Assembly (NCBI GenBank): GCA_944325315.1
Contig: CALVAA010000019.1
Location: forward strand, 1 to 34,496
DNA from: Candidatus Gastranaerophilales bacterium
GTDB lineage: Bacteria; Cyanobacteriota; Vampirovibrionia; Gastranaerophilales; Gastranaerophilaceae
Direction: 5' to 3'
Length of the DNA: 34,496 bases
Below are positions 1 through 15,249 of the stretch, one piece after another. Numbering within the stretch: the first letter of the stretch is position 1; the number at the start of each line of letters is the position of its first letter. A program made the position numbers and the translations under genes. The notes under the pieces were generated by a model. The model was not told the DNA's origin. It did no database searches and saw only the letters and a program-made list of their open reading frames with translations.

Positions 1-244
1 CGCCACAGGCCCAACAGGTATATTCAATTTTCAATCTTGGACTTTGTGGCGAAATTGGTTTCAATTCTCTTATCTTGTTTGATTTTGCTTTCGCAAAATA
101 CAAACAGCGCCACAGGCCCATCAGGTATATTCAATTTTCAATCTTGGACTTTGTGGCGAAATTGGTTTCAATTCTCTTATCATGTTTGATTTTGCTTTCG
201 CAAAATAAAAACAGCGCCACAGGCCCATCAGGTATATTCAATTT
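1..244. repeat. 107-bp tandem repeat, two full copies plus a 30-bp partial copy
   Basis: Copies begin at 1, 108 and 215, each with CGCCACAGGCCC. The two full copies differ at about three positions and the third stops matching after 244. The array may extend left of the window. Each unit has two inverted repeats: CGCCACA (1-7) with TGTGGCG (45-51), and ATTTTGC (82-88) with GCAAAAT (93-99). On the minus strand the loop of the second is GAAA, a GNRA-type tetraloop. The 107-bp period is not a multiple of three, which argues against coding. The array lies just downstream of the minus-strand glycosyltransferase gene, so a structured 3' RNA or an intergenic repeat family are both possible. Confidence 0.9.
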
Positions 245-7357: not shown

Positions 7358-8905
7358 ATGGATAAACTGGGAAAAATTGTCATAGTAGATGACGAAGCCA
7401 TGGTCACCAAAACTCTTTCTATGCTTTTGGGTCTGGAAGGCTTTAGTAATGTTATGGTTTATAATAATCCGATTGAAGCTCTTGATTTTATCGACAATAA
7501 CGAGGTTGATTTAATTTTAAGCGATTTTTATATGCCCAATATGAACGGTATAGACTTTTTAGATAAGGCAAAAAAAATTCAAAAGGATGTTTCGGCCATC
7601 CTTTTAACAGGTTATGCAGACAAAGAAAACGCCATAAGGGCAATTAATGAAATAGGTATATTTAAATATATAGAAAAACCATGGGACAACAACAACCTTA
7701 TAATAAGCATTAAAAACGCCCTTATGCAGACAAGACTTAAAAAAGAACTGGACAAAAAAATAAAAGAGCTTGAATTTGCAAATAAAAAATTAGAATCATA
7801 CTCAAAAAACCTTGAACAAACAGTTCAAAAAAGAACACTTGAACTATCCGACGCTAATTCAAAACTTAATGCAATAATCACAAATTGCGCAGACGGCATT
7901 GTTTTATTTGATCAAAATTATCATATTATTGACCTAAACCCCGCTTCTTTAAATTTGTTTGGACAAAAAAAAGAAGAACTTTTATCAAAAAATCTTTTCG
8001 AGCTTATCGTAAGTGACAGTAAAAGATTTTCAAAAGCAAAATTAAACTCTAAAGAGCATCTTTTTTTAAGAAACTACCACCTTGTTAACTACGCAAAGGA
8101 TATAAAAATACCCGTTGAGATAAGCATTTCTCCCGTTAATTGCAAAAAAGATAATTTTTTTGTTGCAGTTATCAGAGATGTAACCTATCAAAAAGAAACC
8201 GAGCGATTAAGAGACGATTTTATAGCAACATTAACACACGATTTAAGAACCCCGCTTTTAGCAACAATTTCAGGACTTGATTTTGTTTTAGATAAATCAT
8301 TGGGAGAAATCAATGAAAAACAAAACAATCTTTTTTCAGCCATGAAAAAAAGCTCGGAAGATATGCTTGGCCTTGTTAATGCACTTTTGGAAGTTTACAG
8401 ATATGAAGCAGGCAAAACATACCTTTGTAAAACCAAATTTGATGTTGTAAAACTTGCTGAAGAATCTTTGGATGAGTTAAGGCCGTTAGCCCAAAAAACA
8501 GGTACAAATTTTGTTTTAAATTCATCTGACGATGAAATATTTATAAATGCGGATAAAAACGAAATTCACAGGGTTTTGACAAATTTGATAGGTAACGCGA
8601 TAAAGCATTCTCAAAATATAAACGATGTTAAGATTAATATTATTCAAAACAACAAAGATTTAAAAGTGGAAGTAATTGATGACGGCATAGGGCTTTGTAA
8701 AACTGACTGCGAAAGGCTTTTTAATCGTTTTTCTCAAGGAACAAATTCTAAGCGCTCGGCTTCAACAGGATTGGGTTTATATCTTTCAAGACAAATAATT
8801 GAAGCCCATGGCGGGAAAATATATGTTGAATCAGAACTAAACAAGGGTTCAAAATTTACTTTTGAACTTAAAGAATCCATAAATGATTGTAAGGTAATTC
8901 TATGA
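7358..8905 (+). CDS. REC-PAS-histidine kinase (hybrid sensor kinase with N-terminal receiver)
   Basis: This 515-residue soluble signalling protein has no membrane segment. An N-terminal receiver domain (1-122) carries the acidic pair D11/D12, phospho-acceptor D56 in SDFYMP, the LLTG threonine and lysine in EKPW. A coiled coil (about 123-168) leads to a PAS domain (about 170-280; ADGIVLFDQNYHIIDLNPAS). The HisKA domain has THDLRTPL with phospho-accepting H294. The ATPase domain shows an N box (LIGNAIKHS), DDGIGL and STGLGLYLSRQIIEAHGG. An incoming phosphoryl signal or a cytoplasmic ligand could therefore tune the kinase. Its stop overlaps the start of a NarL-type regulator by 4 nt (ATGA), so that regulator is its likely partner. 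Confidence 0.95.
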   Translation: MDKLGKIVIVDDEAMVTKTLSMLLGLEGFSNVMVYNNPIEALDFIDNNEVDLILSDFYMPNMNGIDFLDKAKKIQKDVSAILLTGYADKENAIRAINEIGIFKYIEKPWDNNNLIISIKNALMQTRLKKELDKKIKELEFANKKLESYSKNLEQTVQKRTLELSDANSKLNAIITNCADGIVLFDQNYHIIDLNPASLNLFGQKKEELLSKNLFELIVSDSKRFSKAKLNSKEHLFLRNYHLVNYAKDIKIPVEISISPVNCKKDNFFVAVIRDVTYQKETERLRDDFIATLTHDLRTPLLATISGLDFVLDKSLGEINEKQNNLFSAMKKSSEDMLGLVNALLEVYRYEAGKTYLCKTKFDVVKLAEESLDELRPLAQKTGTNFVLNSSDDEIFINADKNEIHRVLTNLIGNAIKHSQNINDVKINIIQNNKDLKVEVIDDGIGLCKTDCERLFNRFSQGTNSKRSASTGLGLYLSRQIIEAHGGKIYVESELNKGSKFTFELKESINDCKVIL

Positions 8906-9591
8906 GAGAAAAAATTCAAAACAGAAAAATAAATATTTTATTGGTCGAAGACCACGAATTCACAAGGATGGGTTTGTCTATGAAAATTGAAAATACACCT
9001 GACCTTAATCTTGTTGCCCAGGCGACAGACGGACAAGAAGGTGTATTAATGGCGCAAAAATATAATCCGGATGTAATACTTATGGATATCGGGCTTCCCA
9101 AAATGGATGGAATAAGTGCCACAAAAAAAATTAAAGAAGATTTAAAATTAGATTGCGCAGTTTTAATGTTTACTTCAAGAGATAACAAAGAAGATATTTT
9201 TGCAGCATTCAAAGCCGGAGCAGACGGATATATAATGAAAGGTTCAAGTTCGCAAAATCTTTTAAATGCTATAGACACAGTATCTCAACGTGCCGCATGG
9301 ATAGATTCTCAAATCGCCAGAGTTGTTTTATCAAGCATTCAACAGGAAGACAACAATGAAATTGCTTTGAATAAAACAAAAAAAGATGCAAATAAAAAAT
9401 ACGGACTTACAAAAAAAGAGCTTGAAGTGCTTTCATTAATTGTTGACGGTCTTTCCAACCAAGAAATTTCAGAAAAACTCGTTGTGTCAATTTCGACAAC
9501 AAAAGCCCATGTTCATAATATTTTGCAAAAGCTATACCTGACAGACAGAACAAAAGCAGCCATAGTAGCCCTCAAGGAAGGCTTAGTTTAA
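8902..9591 (+). CDS. NarL/FixJ-family response regulator
   Basis: A 229-residue DNA-binding response regulator. The receiver domain (about 10-130) has an acidic pocket in LLVEDHEF, phospho-acceptor D62 in LMDIGLP, the FTSRD threonine/serine and K in YIMKGSS. The C-terminal LuxR-type helix-turn-helix (about 165-229) reads YGLTKKELEVLSLIVDGLSN and then EISEKLVVSISTTKAHVHNI. The ATG overlaps the kinase stop codon by 4 nt. Its own stop overlaps the next gene by one base, giving a tightly coupled three-gene unit. It probably controls the downstream adaptor/porter genes or other envelope genes. No operator could be recognised. Confidence 0.96.
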   Translation: MREKIQNRKINILLVEDHEFTRMGLSMKIENTPDLNLVAQATDGQEGVLMAQKYNPDVILMDIGLPKMDGISATKKIKEDLKLDCAVLMFTSRDNKEDIFAAFKAGADGYIMKGSSSQNLLNAIDTVSQRAAWIDSQIARVVLSSIQQEDNNEIALNKTKKDANKKYGLTKKELEVLSLIVDGLSNQEISEKLVVSISTTKAHVHNILQKLYLTDRTKAAIVALKEGLV

Positions 9592-10523
9592 TGAAATTTT
9601 TTTTAATATTTTTTTCCTTTTTGTTTTTATACTCAAACTACTGTTTTGCTTTTTTTAAAAAACAAGAACCAAAAAAAACAAAAATGGTAGAAACAAAGCA
9701 AGAATGGGAAACTGAAGCAGCAGATGTTCCGCTTAGCGAAAGGCCTCCTTATAATAACGTTACCATAGAACAAAACAAAAAAATAGAAACACCAAAACCG
9801 CATTATGTTTTTGAAAAATACAATTATCCTGCCGGTTCAAGAAAAATAAATATAGAAGACGTCAAAAAAAGACTTTATTCCTATCCTTATGTGGTAGCTG
9901 ATATTAATTGCAGATATATAGCATACCCCAGATATTACTTTTCGGGTGAATATAACCAAATTTTTTCAAGCTTTTATGTTGAAAAACTTGATACATCAAA
10001 AAATAAAACAAAAAGAATACTTGAATATAATCACAACAGTGAAATCAGAACTCCAATAATTGAAGCCGGCTTAAAGGAAAATTACCCAAACCTTTTTAGA
10101 GGCCTTACGCTTGTTGATTGGAGTCATGATTCAAAAAAGCTCTTAATTAAAGAACAAACAGGCTCTCTTTTAGGCGGAATATATAAAACTTATCTGTATG
10201 TACATTTTCTATCTGAAAATGATAAAAATTCGTATACAATTAAGCTTGAAAATTTCGACAATGCAATTAAAAATTATTTCTTGGATTTTGAAAATCTTCA
10301 ACTGATAAAATACAAATACTCATTAGAACCGCTGGGTTTTAGTGCTGACAATGACAATATTATAATAGTATTATGCTGGGCATATAACAAAGACAACAAA
10401 AAAGTATTCCTTGGAAAATGGGGATATAATTGTTCAACTAACGAAATACTGCTCCTTTCAAAAACAGATTCATCCCATGAAATTAGTTTGAACGGATTAA
10501 TTCTAAGACAAACATACGATTAG
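9591..10523 (+). CDS. Secreted protein of unknown function in the kinase-regulator operon
   Basis: This 310-residue protein begins with a signal peptide (MKFFLIFFSFLFLYSNYCFA) and should lie in the periplasm or be exported. The mature part starts with a Lys/Pro/Glu-rich linker (about 22-75). It continues into a domain rich in Tyr, Asn and beta-strand patterns, with LTLVDWSHDSKKLLIKE and LEPLGFSADNDNIIIVL. These two segments recall the W-S-x-D-S-K-x-L/I strands of TolB/WD-type propeller repeats, but only two or three are visible and the assignment is weak. The start shares one base with the regulator's stop (TAATG), so translation is coupled. A sensory or accessory role for the two-component pair is possible. 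I do not recognise the family. Confidence 0.75.
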   Translation: MKFFLIFFSFLFLYSNYCFAFFKKQEPKKTKMVETKQEWETEAADVPLSERPPYNNVTIEQNKKIETPKPHYVFEKYNYPAGSRKINIEDVKKRLYSYPYVVADINCRYIAYPRYYFSGEYNQIFSSFYVEKLDTSKNKTKRILEYNHNSEIRTPIIEAGLKENYPNLFRGLTLVDWSHDSKKLLIKEQTGSLLGGIYKTYLYVHFLSENDKNSYTIKLENFDNAIKNYFLDFENLQLIKYKYSLEPLGFSADNDNIIIVLCWAYNKDNKKVFLGKWGYNCSTNEILLLSKTDSSHEISLNGLILRQTYD

Positions 10524-10569: not shown

Positions 10570-11613
10570 ATGAATTTGGCAAAAACACTGTTTCTGATTC
10601 TTCTTACACTGTGTCTGTGCGGATGTAGGGATATAGAAAGCATTAAAAACGTAGATTATATCAAAGTTGTAAAAGATAAAAATTTAAATTCAAAGACTTT
10701 TCATGGGATGGTAAAATCACAGTTGAAATCCGATTTGAGTTTTCAAAGCGAAGGAAAAATCATATTTCTTCCATACACAAAAGGCGATTTTGTAAAAAAA
10801 GGACAAGTTCTTGCAAGACTTGACGGAATTTTGTATAAAATCAGAAAAAACGAAGAAGAAGCAAGACTAAAAGAAGCAAAAATCGAATACAACAAATCAA
10901 AAAGTTATTATAAAAGAATGGATATTTTACACAAAGAAGGTGCAATTTCGGATAATGACTGGGAAGATGCGTATTTCGGCTTAAAAACACTTGGCGAAAA
11001 AATAAAAATTCAGCAAGAAAAAATAAATTATCTAAATAGGGAAATAAGCTACAATATTATAACAGCACCCTATGACGGCTTTATAAGCGACAAAATGAGT
11101 GAAGTAGGTTCATATGCCAAAATCGGAGTGCCTGTTTTAACAATAATGGGCAATAATAAAACCCAAATAGAAACAATGGTGGATTCTTCCATTATTAATA
11201 ATCTTGGCTTGAATGAAACAGTAGAAATAACTGCGGGCGGAAATTATTACGAAGGAAAAATCGCCCATATTTCAAAGACAAGCTCGACAACCGGCGGGTA
11301 CTTAATTAAAATATATTTAGACGGAATAAAAAGCGAATTGAAAGACGGCATGAGTGCCGATATTACAATACCGATTAAAAATGTTTATTGTACATATATT
11401 CCTCTTGATTGCATCTTTGAAGAAAACGGGGAAAAGTTTGTATATAAAATTGTAAATATAAAAAATAACATCGGTACTGTACTAAAAGAAAAAATCAAAA
11501 CAGGATTAATAAAAGATACGGAAGTTGAAATTATAAAAGGAATAAATGACAACGATTTAATAATATCAGGCAATTTAAACAAATTGAACAATAATATCAA
11601 AGTAAGATTATGA
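10570..11613 (+). CDS. RND-type efflux periplasmic adaptor lipoprotein (HlyD/AcrA family)
   Basis: A 347-residue membrane fusion protein that would link an inner-membrane transporter to an outer-membrane channel. A lipoprotein signal ends in L-C-G-C with lipidated Cys19. It is followed by the first half of the lipoyl domain (GKIIFLPYTKGDFVKKGQVL), an alpha-hairpin (about 90-160, rich in Lys/Glu), and the second lipoyl half (NIITAPYDGFISDKMSEVGS). A beta-barrel domain (GKIAHISK, DGMSADITIPI) and a membrane-proximal domain (VPLDCIF-like YIPLDCIFEENGEKFVYKI, then VEIIKGINDNDLIISGNL) complete it. Its stop overlaps the porter-like gene by 4 nt (ATGA), so the two are translationally coupled. It starts 46 nt after the secreted protein gene. 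Confidence 0.93.
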   Translation: MNLAKTLFLILLTLCLCGCRDIESIKNVDYIKVVKDKNLNSKTFHGMVKSQLKSDLSFQSEGKIIFLPYTKGDFVKKGQVLARLDGILYKIRKNEEEARLKEAKIEYNKSKSYYKRMDILHKEGAISDNDWEDAYFGLKTLGEKIKIQQEKINYLNREISYNIITAPYDGFISDKMSEVGSYAKIGVPVLTIMGNNKTQIETMVDSSIINNLGLNETVEITAGGNYYEGKIAHISKTSSTTGGYLIKIYLDGIKSELKDGMSADITIPIKNVYCTYIPLDCIFEENGEKFVYKIVNIKNNIGTVLKEKIKTGLIKDTEVEIIKGINDNDLIISGNLNKLNNNIKVRL

Positions 11614-13166
11614 AAAAATATATTTTAATTATTGTTTTTTTGATTACATTTTTTGCCTTTTATATTATTCAAAAAAATTCATACTCAATAAGAATAAATT
11701 TTCCGCTCAAAGGAATGAATTGTGAAAAAATCAACTTTCAAATTGCAAACAAGATTAGCGAAATCTTACTTCAAATTGAACAAATAAAAGACTTTGTAAT
11801 TTTTTCAAAACAAGATTCCTGCAGTGTCTACATTAAAATCAAACCTTTTTTGATGCTCAGAAAAAAACTTGCCTTTGAAATTGCAAGAAAATTTGATAAT
11901 GAATTTGAAAATCTTAACTTTGACTTAGATGATGAATACGATTACCCTTACTGTACATTCTTTATAATGGCAACAGATGATTCTTATTATGATTTAAAGA
12001 AAAAAGCCCAAGATATATTAGAAAAACTTTTAAATTTAAAAATAGCGTCAGAAGTTGAAGCTTTCAGTCCGGAAATAGTAACCTATATACATTTTGACTA
12101 CAATACACTTTTAAATTATGATTTATCAGTTAGTGATATAAAAAATATTATTCTTAAGACAAATATAAAAAACACAAGTTCTTTAAAATCAAATGCAAAA
12201 AGCAGTTTTTCCGTAGATACTAATGGCAACATAAATAATATTGATGATATTAAAAGCATTGCTTTATACCAAAAAAATAAACAATTCTCTATTTTATTAA
12301 AAGATGTCTTTGAAGTTGAAAATGCTCTGAAAACGCCTCCCTTGGGGCTTATATTCTTTGATGAATATAAAGCAGTTATTTTTGCAATTAAAAAAAGAAA
12401 GTTTTATCCTGCTTTTTTGTTTTATTACAAATTAAAAAAATATAGAAATTTTTTAAACAAAAATATGAAAAACTATAAATTTACAATCATAAACAGTTCA
12501 AAACTAAAAAAAACAGAAGTATATCTTCAAGAAAACTCAAGTACCGACGCCCTTTTTGATTTATATAAAAAAATTAAACACAAAGGTTTTAAAAACACAC
12601 TTTACCTGCTTTCAATGCCAAACCCTAAAATAGGTTTAAAAGACGAATTTTTTGAATATTTAAACAACAGATTGATAATTCTTTCAAATCCTGTTGAAAC
12701 AAATAAGATAAGAAAATTTTTAAAAAAAAATAAATTTGATTACATTAAAGAAAATAAAAACAAAATTGAAATTTATAAAAACACGCCAGATGAAATCATT
12801 ACAGAAATAAAAAATTTCAGTAATAATTATATAAACAATACAACATCTAAAAAACTACAAATTAATTACCAAATTGTACAGTACTTTTTAAGAGACTACG
12901 GTTTTATAAAAAATGAAGTAATTGATGCAATCTTTGCTTCAAACGACGGGTTGGAGGCAGGGTATTACTTTGATGAAAAAATAAAAATTCCTATAATAAT
13001 AAAAGCAAAAAACCAAAAAAATAATTTTATTTATTCAAACACATACAAAACTTTGTTTCCGTTTGAAAATTTGACAAAAACTTTTATTAAAAACAGTTAT
13101 TATATGATAGTCAGAAAAAACGGAAAATATTACGCCGAATTAATACGCAAAAACCCTTCAATTTGA
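11610..13166 (+). CDS. RND-porter-like protein lacking transmembrane helices 2-12
   Basis: A 518-residue protein with one N-terminal membrane helix (residues 4-20); the rest looks periplasmic. Residues 25-305 follow the order of the first RND periplasmic loop: PN1-like start (SIRINFPLKGMNCEKINFQI), the segment EIVTYIHFDYNTLLNYDLSV that matches the conserved 'V-x-V-D-x-x-x-L-x-x-x-x-L-S-x-x-D-V' pattern, and SILLKDVFEVENAL matching 'V-x-L-x-D-V-A-x-V'. Residues 306-515 resemble the second loop, including GLEAGYYFDEKIKIPIIIKA and LFPFENL. The protein ends where helix 8 would begin. Helices carrying the proton-relay residues are absent. The open reading frame is intact and coupled to the adaptor gene, so it is probably functional. 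By-eye homology; no search was run. Confidence 0.65.
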   Translation: MKKYILIIVFLITFFAFYIIQKNSYSIRINFPLKGMNCEKINFQIANKISEILLQIEQIKDFVIFSKQDSCSVYIKIKPFLMLRKKLAFEIARKFDNEFENLNFDLDDEYDYPYCTFFIMATDDSYYDLKKKAQDILEKLLNLKIASEVEAFSPEIVTYIHFDYNTLLNYDLSVSDIKNIILKTNIKNTSSLKSNAKSSFSVDTNGNINNIDDIKSIALYQKNKQFSILLKDVFEVENALKTPPLGLIFFDEYKAVIFAIKKRKFYPAFLFYYKLKKYRNFLNKNMKNYKFTIINSSKLKKTEVYLQENSSTDALFDLYKKIKHKGFKNTLYLLSMPNPKIGLKDEFFEYLNNRLIILSNPVETNKIRKFLKKNKFDYIKENKNKIEIYKNTPDEIITEIKNFSNNYINNTTSKKLQINYQIVQYFLRDYGFIKNEVIDAIFASNDGLEAGYYFDEKIKIPIIIKAKNQKNNFIYSNTYKTLFPFENLTKTFIKNSYYMIVRKNGKYYAELIRKNPSI

Positions 13167-13223: not shown

Positions 13224-13397
13224 TTATCTGTTTATTCTGAAATTTATCATTGCTTTGTGATTGAGTGCAATCATTTCCATTGAGTTGAAAATTGTGTTTG
13301 CATCGATTGTAGATTTTGTGTCAAGGTTTACAGTTACTTTAGATGAATAAAGTTCTGCAAGTTTTTGATCAAAATTTTCAGTAATTTGTAGTTTCAT
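13224..13397 (-). CDS. Small HPr-like protein (57 residues) without the active histidine
   Basis: A short reading frame on the minus strand: MKLQITENFDQKLAELYSSK, continuing to TIDANTIFNSMEMIALNHKA and MINFRINR, then TAA. The start has AAAGG 8 nt upstream. The segment from about residue 18 lines up with the second half of HPr: a strand, then 'V-N-x-K-S-I-M-x-x-M-x-L-x-x-x-x-G-x-x-I-x-I', here I-D-A-N-T-I-F-N-S-M-E-M-I-A-L-N-H-K-A-M-I-N-F. HPr is normally about 85 residues with phospho-acceptor His15; that part and the GIHARP motif are missing. It would therefore not carry PTS phosphate and may be a binding or regulatory relic. It follows the TolC-like pair by 105 nt on the same strand. Confidence 0.55.
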   Translation of the reverse strand: MKLQITENFDQKLAELYSSKVTVNLDTKSTIDANTIFNSMEMIALNHKAMINFRINR

Positions 13398-13502: not shown

Positions 13503-14375
13503 TCACTTGTTTTCTTCAATTTTTTTAAGAGCATCTGTACCCACAAGATTTTCTAAAATTGAACGGGAAGTTAAAAAATCGTCTTGCGCTCTTTGAGCAT
13601 CTATTTTGGCGTTTCTGTAATATACATCCGCAATAATTAATTCTTCTTTCGATTTGTTCTGTGAATTTTTATAAACTTGCTCTCTTTTTTCAAAATTTTC
13701 TTTTGTCATCTTGGCAAGCTTTTCTTTTGTCTTGTAATCAATGTATAAATCTAAAAGTTTTTTTTGCAAATCATCAATTTTTCTTATTAAAAGGACCATA
13801 TCTGCGTCAGTTACTTTTGAAAACCTGTAGTTTGCTTCTTTATCATCTTTCATAAAAGCATTAACAAGCCCCCCGCCTATTAAAGCACCGGTTGCAAGAT
13901 ACGGATCTGCAGCAAGACTTGCGCCTGCCAGAGAAGAAAAGCTTGTAATGGGTTTTAAAATTTTTTTAATAGTGGATTCATTTGGTTTGTCTTCATCCGG
14001 ATTTGAAAGCTTGTAGATAGTATATTTCATTGTTTCGGATTTTGCCGTTGTTGCTTGCCACAGTATACTTAAATCGGAATTTGTTTTATTTTCATCCAAC
14101 TCCAATTCATAGCTTATATCATTTGCAAGTTTTTTAAGACTTAAATCCGCATAATTTTGTCCTTCTTTTGTCGAAGGATTACTGTTGTCTTTAGGGTTAG
14201 AAGTTAATTTTGCACTTTGTTGTTCAATTTTTTTATCGTTTTGTTTATTTGATTCAACTTTATCCGTATTGGAAAGCCTTCCCATAAAAGGTTTCGGCTC
14301 AACTAAATCCGACACATTGATTGCATAAGAGTAAGGTAAAAGCAATAATATTAAATTAAGGAGAATTTTTTTCAT
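13503..14375 (-). CDS. Secreted TolC-like helical protein, half length (copy 2)
   Basis: This 290-residue protein has a signal peptide (MKKILLNLILLLLPYSYA). Its C-terminal half is a long helical coiled coil ending YRNAKIDAQRAQDDFLTSR followed by ILENLVG, which resembles the 'A-x-x-x-Y-x-x-A-...-A-x-x-x-L-...-L-x-x-L-x-G' close of outer-membrane efflux (TolC) repeats. It shares its layout with the upstream gene product: LW-x-AT, a KL-x-x-P segment, a Gly/Ala-rich hydrophobic middle, then T-D-A-x-x-x-x-L-x-x-x-I-x-D-L-Q. TolC proteins are typically 430-490 residues. I chose the ATG at 14375 because of a strong GGAGGA 5-6 nt before it; an upstream start would add ten residues. It overlaps the preceding gene by 20 nt. 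Confidence 0.72.
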   Translation of the reverse strand: MKKILLNLILLLLPYSYAINVSDLVEPKPFMGRLSNTDKVESNKQNDKKIEQQSAKLTSNPKDNSNPSTKEGQNYADLSLKKLANDISYELELDENKTNSDLSILWQATTAKSETMKYTIYKLSNPDEDKPNESTIKKILKPITSFSSLAGASLAADPYLATGALIGGGLVNAFMKDDKEANYRFSKVTDADMVLLIRKIDDLQKKLLDLYIDYKTKEKLAKMTKENFEKREQVYKNSQNKSKEELIIADVYYRNAKIDAQRAQDDFLTSRSILENLVGTDALKKIEENK

Positions 14376-15249
14376 TTCTATCCTCCAAAGGTAAATTTGA
14401 AACATTTAAAAGTTTCTTTTCATAATTCAAATCATTTTTATCGACATTCTGAAAAGTTAAATCAAATTGGGCAACATTTAATTCCTGTACTGTTTTTTTT
14501 CCTGCAAGTCTTACAAGAGCAAGTTGATATTTTTTTGCTTCTTGCTTCAGTTTAAATTCTTCTATTAATTCATCTTCCCACTGAGCAGAAGTAATTGATA
14601 TATTTAATGAATCACTGCCGGATAAAGCATCAGAATAATTTTTGTTGTGCAGAAGAATTTGCTCCCTGCATTTTTTTAGCTTAGTAAGTGCGCCTTTGTA
14701 TTTGAAATAGTCTACAATAATTTCATCCTGTAAGTCTTCAATTAAGCTTGCAAGTTCTATTGCTTCAGTATCTGTTATAGCCGGGTTTTGAAGTTTTTCA
14801 TTATTTTCTTTATTGATTAAACTTGTAGCAAGTCTGCCGGCAGCATAAGCACCCGATTGCACACCGTAGTTCATTCCCAAAAAAGAAGGCAATAAAGCCG
14901 CTCCGGAAATTATTGCACTCATTGATTTAGCCAAAAGCGAAGAGTGGATTCTTCTTTGTTCTGCCGGAATTGCAAGTTTTTTAAGACAAAAACTAATCAT
15001 AGGATTATTGTTTACGGTTGCATTCCATAAATTCTCAATATCTTCAAGATCAGCCCTTTGTTGTTCGTTTATTTGGTTTTGTGCTTCCAGTGTATCATCA
15101 ACAAATAAAGAACCTTTTAAAGTATCTACCTGGTCTTTATATTGAACATCAAAGCTTTGAACTTTGTCGAGTCTGATTGCATCCTCGGCAAAAGCAAAAG
15201 GAATTATATTAAAAATTAGCAAAATAAGGCTTATATATTTCCTCACCAT
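14356..15249 (-). CDS. Secreted TolC-like helical protein, half length (copy 1)
   Basis: A 297-residue exported protein with signal peptide MVRKYISLILLIFNIIPFAFA. Visible parts are an acidic linker, IENLWNATVNNNPMISFCLK, a Gly/Ala-rich hydrophobic stretch (about 115-155), then TDTEAIELASLIEDLQDEII and a long helical region ending in LALVRLAGKK, similar to the end of a TolC/outer-membrane efflux helix pair. It is a diverged paralogue of the following gene, with which it overlaps by 20 nt. The two could form a hetero-oligomer that replaces the internally duplicated TolC subunit. No barrel-forming strands were identified. There is no Shine-Dalgarno sequence; a -10-like TAAAAT lies 6 nt before the ATG. 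Confidence 0.72.
   Translation of the reverse strand: MVRKYISLILLIFNIIPFAFAEDAIRLDKVQSFDVQYKDQVDTLKGSLFVDDTLEAQNQINEQQRADLEDIENLWNATVNNNPMISFCLKKLAIPAEQRRIHSSLLAKSMSAIISGAALLPSFLGMNYGVQSGAYAAGRLATSLINKENNEKLQNPAITDTEAIELASLIEDLQDEIIVDYFKYKGALTKLKKCREQILLHNKNYSDALSGSDSLNISITSAQWEDELIEEFKLKQEAKKYQLALVRLAGKKTVQELNVAQFDLTFQNVDKNDLNYEKKLLNVSNLPLEDRNEKNSP

Follow-up and report, generated by a model that had tools for sequence, protein, structure and literature searches.

An RND-derived periplasmic head on a single membrane anchor, encoded with its adaptor in Candidatus Gastranaerophilales

The gene at 11610..13166 (+) of the window, by which is meant the whole stretch of 34,496 nucleotides analysed here, encodes a stripped RND porter of 518 aa in which a single anchor helix is followed by the fused periplasmic loops 1 and 2, as seen from its frame, Pfam, a genus profile, hydropathy and AlphaFold. 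Homology of this protein to the RND superfamily, HAE-1 type (TriC/MexK-like), is certain, and both its identity as an RND periplasmic head on one anchor and its origin from a pump that lost TM2-7 and everything after them from TM8 carry very high confidence. In the usual view an RND pump is a single machine that cannot be taken apart, in which a membrane motor drives a periplasmic head. Here we present the features of the gene, its relatives and its partner adaptor, together with a best explanation in which the anchored head of stripped origin would serve as an unpowered docking collar for the adaptor; taken as a whole, this explanation is about evenly poised between right and wrong.

Gene structure and sequence matches

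The frame 11610-13166 (+) is open over 518 codons with no internal stops, and its start overlaps the stop of the adaptor gene by 4 nt (ATGA). Hydropathy analysis shows a single hydrophobic segment at residues 3-21, and AlphaFold places a helix at residues 2-22 (11613..11675, +), the N-terminal anchor equivalent to TM1. An intact 518-codon frame with one N-terminal helix had been described in an earlier note on this DNA, and ORF, hydropathy and predicted helix all agree with that description.

The Pfam family ACR_tran (PF00873) matches the porter at 30.1 bits, above the gathering cut-off of 28, with the match limited to loop 1 (residues 27-263 against profile positions 43-287); the same family is matched at E 0.01 or better by 17 of 20 orthologues. 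A profile built from 20 orthologues of the window's genus (A1) reached MexK at 1.7e-11 and TriC at 1e-9 with loop 1, and CmeB residues 685-800 at 2.5e-5 with loop 2. The profile match to the RND loops that the earlier note had proposed to look for was found in these searches, and the segments it had assigned in order to both loops fall where it put them in the alignment to full-length relatives.

In that alignment the columns of TM2-7 and TM8-12 are empty in the stripped porters, and all stripped members have one TM segment as against 9-12 in the full-length relatives. In the coordinates of the full-length relative G226, the TM2-TM7 gap spans about 232 residues and the window porter ends near residue 803; TM8 of G226 begins near residue 851. 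No TM-coding sequence remains downstream of the porter. The removal of helices 2-12, claimed from the window alone, is thus borne out by comparison with the full-length pumps of sister genera, against which TM2-7 and TM8 onward are missing. The 12 TM helices in two 6-TM repeats that characterize an RND pump are absent, as are the proton-relay Asp/Lys of TM4 and TM10, the stripped porter being without these helices; because both features are lacking, the proper name is RND-derived porter protein and not RND pump.

Predicted fold and subdomain layout

The AlphaFold prediction of the window porter as a monomer, made with 24 orthologues, has a mean pLDDT of 86.7 and a pTM of 0.84, with one doubtful loop (residues 188-205) and with loop 1 passing directly into loop 2 at residues 290-300. 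The top Foldseek matches are AcrBper structures (5ENO/5EN5/7B8R type; best E 4.6e-26, TM about 0.70-0.74). VIA-align gave Z 27.1 to OqxB across 487 residues and Z of about 24-26 to AcrB, MexB, CusA and TriC. The protein is confidently predicted to have the fold of the porter (PN1, PN2, PC1, PC2) and docking (DN, DC) domains with the end of PC2 trimmed, and the AlphaFold check proposed for the porter fold accordingly matched these domains of AcrB, OqxB, CusA and TriC. The earlier view that all porter parts are kept stands for the porter and docking fold but not in full, since the last helix-strand of PC2 is missing and PC1 and PC2a are somewhat shortened.

All predicted parts lie on the + strand. 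The anchor is followed by a PN1-like subdomain (residues 27-113; 11688..11948), placed from AlphaFold, VIA-align and subdomain occupancy with approximate boundaries drawn from predicted secondary structure. Part 1 of a PN2-like subdomain (residues 114-154; 11949..12071; AlphaFold, subdomain occupancy) leads into a DN-like docking subdomain (residues 155-250; 12072..12359; AlphaFold, occupancy), after which the alignment places part 2 of PN2 (residues 251-296; 12360..12497), with TM2-TM7 missing at its end. The PC1-like subdomain follows at residues 297-380 (12498..12749; AlphaFold, subdomain occupancy), and part 1 of the PC2-like subdomain (PC2a) at residues 381-411 (12750..12842; subdomain occupancy). 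The DC-like docking subdomain at residues 412-496 (12843..13097) contains the match to CmeB 685-800 and is further placed by AlphaFold and occupancy. Residues 497-518 (13098..13163) align with the last strands only of PC2 and stop before its last helix and TM8.

Orthologues and selection

Intact porter orthologues of 408-558 aa are present in 25 of the 28 genomes of the window's genus (g1), each directly after the same adaptor. In a locus search with the adaptor alignment, the loci that come from named records are mostly of Candidatus Gastranaerophilales MAGs. Orthologues of about 500 residues beside an adaptor were what the earlier note had suggested seeking in related genomes. Its further question, whether the gene is a recent frameshifted fragment, is answered by the same result, as the relatives form a family whose genes are intact, encode about 410-560 aa and lie beside the adaptor. 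Identity to the window protein is only 23-38% in the multiple alignments, yet 25/25 copies are open frames. In the wider comparisons the porter is 23-40% and the adaptor 40-65% identical, so that the porter evolves faster. Nei-Gojobori dN/dS values in close pairs are 0.07-0.28, which are rough values because dS is near saturation, and porter dN/dS equals that of the adaptor in the closest group. Translational coupling to the adaptor is kept in most orthologues, and deletions across orthologues stay in frame. Sequence comparison shows that purifying selection maintains the porter, always together with its adaptor; the opinion that it is probably not a pseudogene agrees with the 25 intact orthologues and their dN/dS.

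In a search of the whole class, only g1 and g26 yielded frames of about 440-650 aa that match A1 across both loops. The order-level search also returned one 497-aa frame, in G078 (f3, g41), that matches A1 in loop 1 only.

Subdomain occupancy was compared in 21 orthologues. PN1, DN and DC are 94-100% present in 21/21, and PC1 is at least 90% present in 17/21, with shortened forms among the orthologues. One lineage (G003, G012, G018 and, judged by sequence, G009) has lost PC2a, and in G007, a separate lineage, PC1 is wholly deleted together with most of PC2a. The AlphaFold model of the 408-aa orthologue without PC1 (pLDDT 81.2, pTM 0.69) still has the RND-head fold, with Z of about 18. Further deletions within the genus are thus confined to the PC1/PC2 cleft and spare the docking parts. 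Sequence conservation is nearly even across subdomains, the docking parts being no more conserved than the rest; only their presence is conserved. In RND pumps the entry cleft is made by PC1 and PC2, which together with PN2 also make up the pocket; DN and DC keep the trimer together and are turned towards adaptor and channel. Since PC1/PC2 were repeatedly deleted and the docking parts never, a structural job appears likelier than alternating-access substrate transport, and the pattern suggests that the role retained is more likely one of structure or docking than of substrate binding or such transport.

Genomic context

The adaptor gene (10570..11613, +) encodes a periplasmic adaptor with a lipoprotein-type signal, identified by profile and sequence matches as RND_mfp (TIGR01730), TriA/B- and MexJ-like; with the 4-nt overlap, this supports the reading of translational coupling to a normal adaptor. 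It adjoins the porter in 25/25 porter-bearing genomes of the genus. Upstream lie three conserved neighbours, an HK (7358-8905, +), a LuxR-type RR (8902-9591, +) and orf310 (9591-10523, +), and these precede the adaptor-porter pair wherever the neighbourhood was fetched (21 genomes). Three of the 28 genus genomes have no porter: in G006 and G013, HK-RR-orf310 are kept and adaptor and porter are both missing, and in G015 the locus is cut by the contig end. As adaptor and porter were lost together in G006 and G013, they behave as one two-gene module. HK-RR-orf310 were considered as part of this module and are treated as neighbours only, being kept where the pair is lost, and orf310 being present in 234/239 genomes of the family. 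The latter is a secreted protein without known family match that adjoins HK-RR in every neighbourhood fetched and reaches about 490 aa in genus g26.

The genome holds several OEP-family (TolC-type) channels, all away from the porter operon, and no dedicated OMF gene was found in this operon or in that of the full-length ancestor form in genus g65. The genes at 13503-14405 and 14356-15249 were considered as the missing TolC and rejected, as they have no family match and, among the genomes fetched, lie close to the porter in just one other. Besides the porter, an ACR_tran search of the genome returned only two full-length pumps (C5 and C1, which have their own adaptor and channel genes), SecD/SecF and an RseP; a 440-aa match at C7, considered as a lone TM half, proved to be SecD. 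No TM gene or energising gene is conserved beside the porter in the genus neighbourhoods fetched. Further exporters with adaptors are encoded in the genome, and a 96-aa short frame (G000:C27:19114-19332) that is 41% identical to the adaptor N-terminus is a possible adaptor remnant.

Right after the porter, at 13224-13397 (-), lies a 57-aa reverse ORF (MKLQITENFDQKLAELYSSKV...), and a similar sequence occupies this position in the other genomes of the genus that were compared; several assemblies have contigs that stop within it, as though it existed in many copies. At the contig end, window 1-244 contains 2.3 copies of a 107-bp tandem repeat with the unit beginning CGCCACAGGCCCA, which also forms the end of an apparent tRNA-Leu gene where the L055 contig ends correspondingly. 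Tails of tRNA genes in repeated copies may be the reason for the break in the contig.

Full-length relatives and origin

In genus g65, HK-RR-orf310 are followed, after about 3.6 kb of other genes, by an adaptor and a full-length RND pump that has 1008-1023 aa and matches TriC along its whole length at 2.2e-149. Full-length pumps were also found in genera g66 and g68. In g26, one conserved locus, with the order two small secreted proteins, short reverse gene, adaptor and porter or pump, carries a pump of 989-1001 aa in G052, G125 and G172 and a stripped head of about 553-573 aa in G208, G151, G223 and G258. The gene that follows in the stripped copies and in G172 is of SulP type; for G125, the contig is not long enough to reveal the wider locus. 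Full-length pumps at the same operon or locus in sister genera give the direction of change as a loss of helices 2-12.

Because stripped and full-length versions share the g26 locus in different species, stripping most likely happened twice, independently in two lineages, as judged from trees and gene order. The adaptor tree joins the stripped and full-length g26 members (100/99) and rejects a single clade of all stripped members (p-AU 0.004). The porter tree groups all stripped heads (90/99, not starred), weakly and with long branches, which is the point in favour of a single origin, and under it a g26 clade is not rejected (p 0.137). A scenario of one truncation, after which the porter alone was transferred into the g26 locus, is less favoured, given the adaptor tree, the differing loci of g1 and g26, and the identity of the g26 heads, which is 33% to the g26 full-length pumps and 24% to the g1 heads; a single origin of all stripped heads was rejected on these grounds.

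In TM4, the full-length relatives of g65, g26 and g66 carry LVDN instead of the LVDD present in AcrB, TriC and MexK; in TM10 they carry Asn at the position of AcrB K940, which is Arg in TriC and MexK. Of the three canonical relay residues, two are therefore already altered in these full-length relatives. It is a speculation, drawn from these residues, that the changes might have weakened proton coupling ahead of helix loss; such variants may be common among other RND pumps. Loci L093-L098 and L089-L092 contain full-length TriC/MexK-like pumps of this family with LVDN in TM4 and Asn in TM10. In g65 (L093, L097, L158) a 300-aa gene lies ahead of the pump pair; judged by its N-terminal sequence alone it resembles XerC/XerD-type recombinases, and it might have helped to move the pair.

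Proposed function

A role of the stripped porter as collar or conduit is put forward tentatively, by analogy with the engineered AcrBper, and falls slightly short of an even chance. Three copies would trimerise through the docking subdomains, as AcrBper does, to form an unpowered collar at the base of a trans-periplasmic conduit. The hexameric adaptor would assemble on this collar and link it to one of the TolC-type channels of the genome, the collar seating and opening the adaptor-channel assembly. The complex could act as a trans-periplasmic conduit, or as a periplasmic scavenging or holding complex, without use of the proton gradient. The faster evolution of the porter relative to the adaptor and its absence in 3/28 genomes speak against a collar and would also fit slow decay. 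The near-even sequence conservation across subdomains and the lack of a dedicated OMF gene in the operon also count against the collar.

Such decay, in which a pump is being lost and the head slowly erodes, would also account for the repeated internal deletions and for the missing copies in G006, G013 and G015 (contig end). It is decidedly unlikely, however, in view of 25/25 open frames at the low identities given above, dN/dS equal to that of the adaptor in the closest group, translational coupling mostly kept, and deletions that are in frame and spare the docking parts. A passive or gated path, in which the PN2/PC1 pocket captures a periplasmic substrate and passes it to adaptor and channel, powered either by the gradient of the substrate itself or by a different transporter of the inner membrane, is rather unlikely. 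It draws on the pocket subdomains retained in most orthologues, on the other exporters with adaptors in the genome and on AcrBper, which binds drugs without a TM domain (PMC8617272); yet the gene is retained where PC1 is wholly gone (G007) and in the second lineage without PC2a, and no energising gene is conserved beside it in the genus.

Heterotrimeric RND pumps such as MdtBC exist (PMC8277102), and with two full-length pumps in the genome the porter could be a regulatory or mixed-trimer subunit that joins or competes with C5 and C1, or titrates adaptors and channels. As these pumps are distant (loops about 14% identical to the stripped g26 heads) and have their own adaptor and channel genes, and as the porter is coupled to its own adaptor, this is considered very unlikely. 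No support was found for a split pump or an artefact. A TM domain supplied by another gene is extremely improbable, given what the ACR_tran search of the genome returned and the lack of a conserved neighbouring TM gene; a frameshift or assembly fragment of a full-length pump has a negligible chance, given that 25 independent assemblies from one genus and 4 from another share this architecture and that no TM remnant lies downstream.

Under the collar reading, two lineages would independently have made an unpowered anchored collar that still partners its adaptor, with a head function separate from the motor; this too is offered as a possibility just below even. If true, the RND head has a selected function apart from its motor, and one may ask whether a motorless head provides passive exit, channel opening, scaffolding or sensing. 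A natural head under selection, with an uncut ancestor in the corresponding operon of a sister genus and a likely second origin, gives a direct handle on what adaptor and head do without energy, and the cleft-less lineages are a built-in experiment on which head parts matter.

Comparison with known systems

No published natural RND protein without TM domain was found in literature searches covering part of the literature. TriC and MexK, HAE-1 RND pumps of Pseudomonas aeruginosa, are homologous to the stripped porter in loops 1 and 2, and the window adaptor is closest to TriA/B and MexJ. In contrast to TriC/MexK and to the full-length relatives in g65, g66, g26 and g68, genera of the family to which the window's genus belongs, the stripped porter is without TM2-12 and the proton-relay residues; compared with TriC/MexK its last PC2 helix-strand is trimmed, and some orthologues are without PC1 or PC2a. 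SecD/SecF, of the RND superfamily and split into two 6-TM halves, are likewise a natural departure from the one-chain 12-TM layout, but SecDF retains both TM halves and proton coupling (PMC8277102), whereas the stripped porter has no TM domain. AcrBper, the engineered soluble loop fusion of AcrB (PDB 5EN5, 5ENO, 7B8R, among others), has the same direct joining of loop 1 to loop 2 and forms trimers and binds drugs with no membrane domain at all (PMC8617272). It is a man-made soluble protein derived from AcrB, whereas the window porter occurs in nature, carries a membrane anchor, is TriC-like and has a partner adaptor; the porter is a natural counterpart of this construct, which is used in inhibitor studies.
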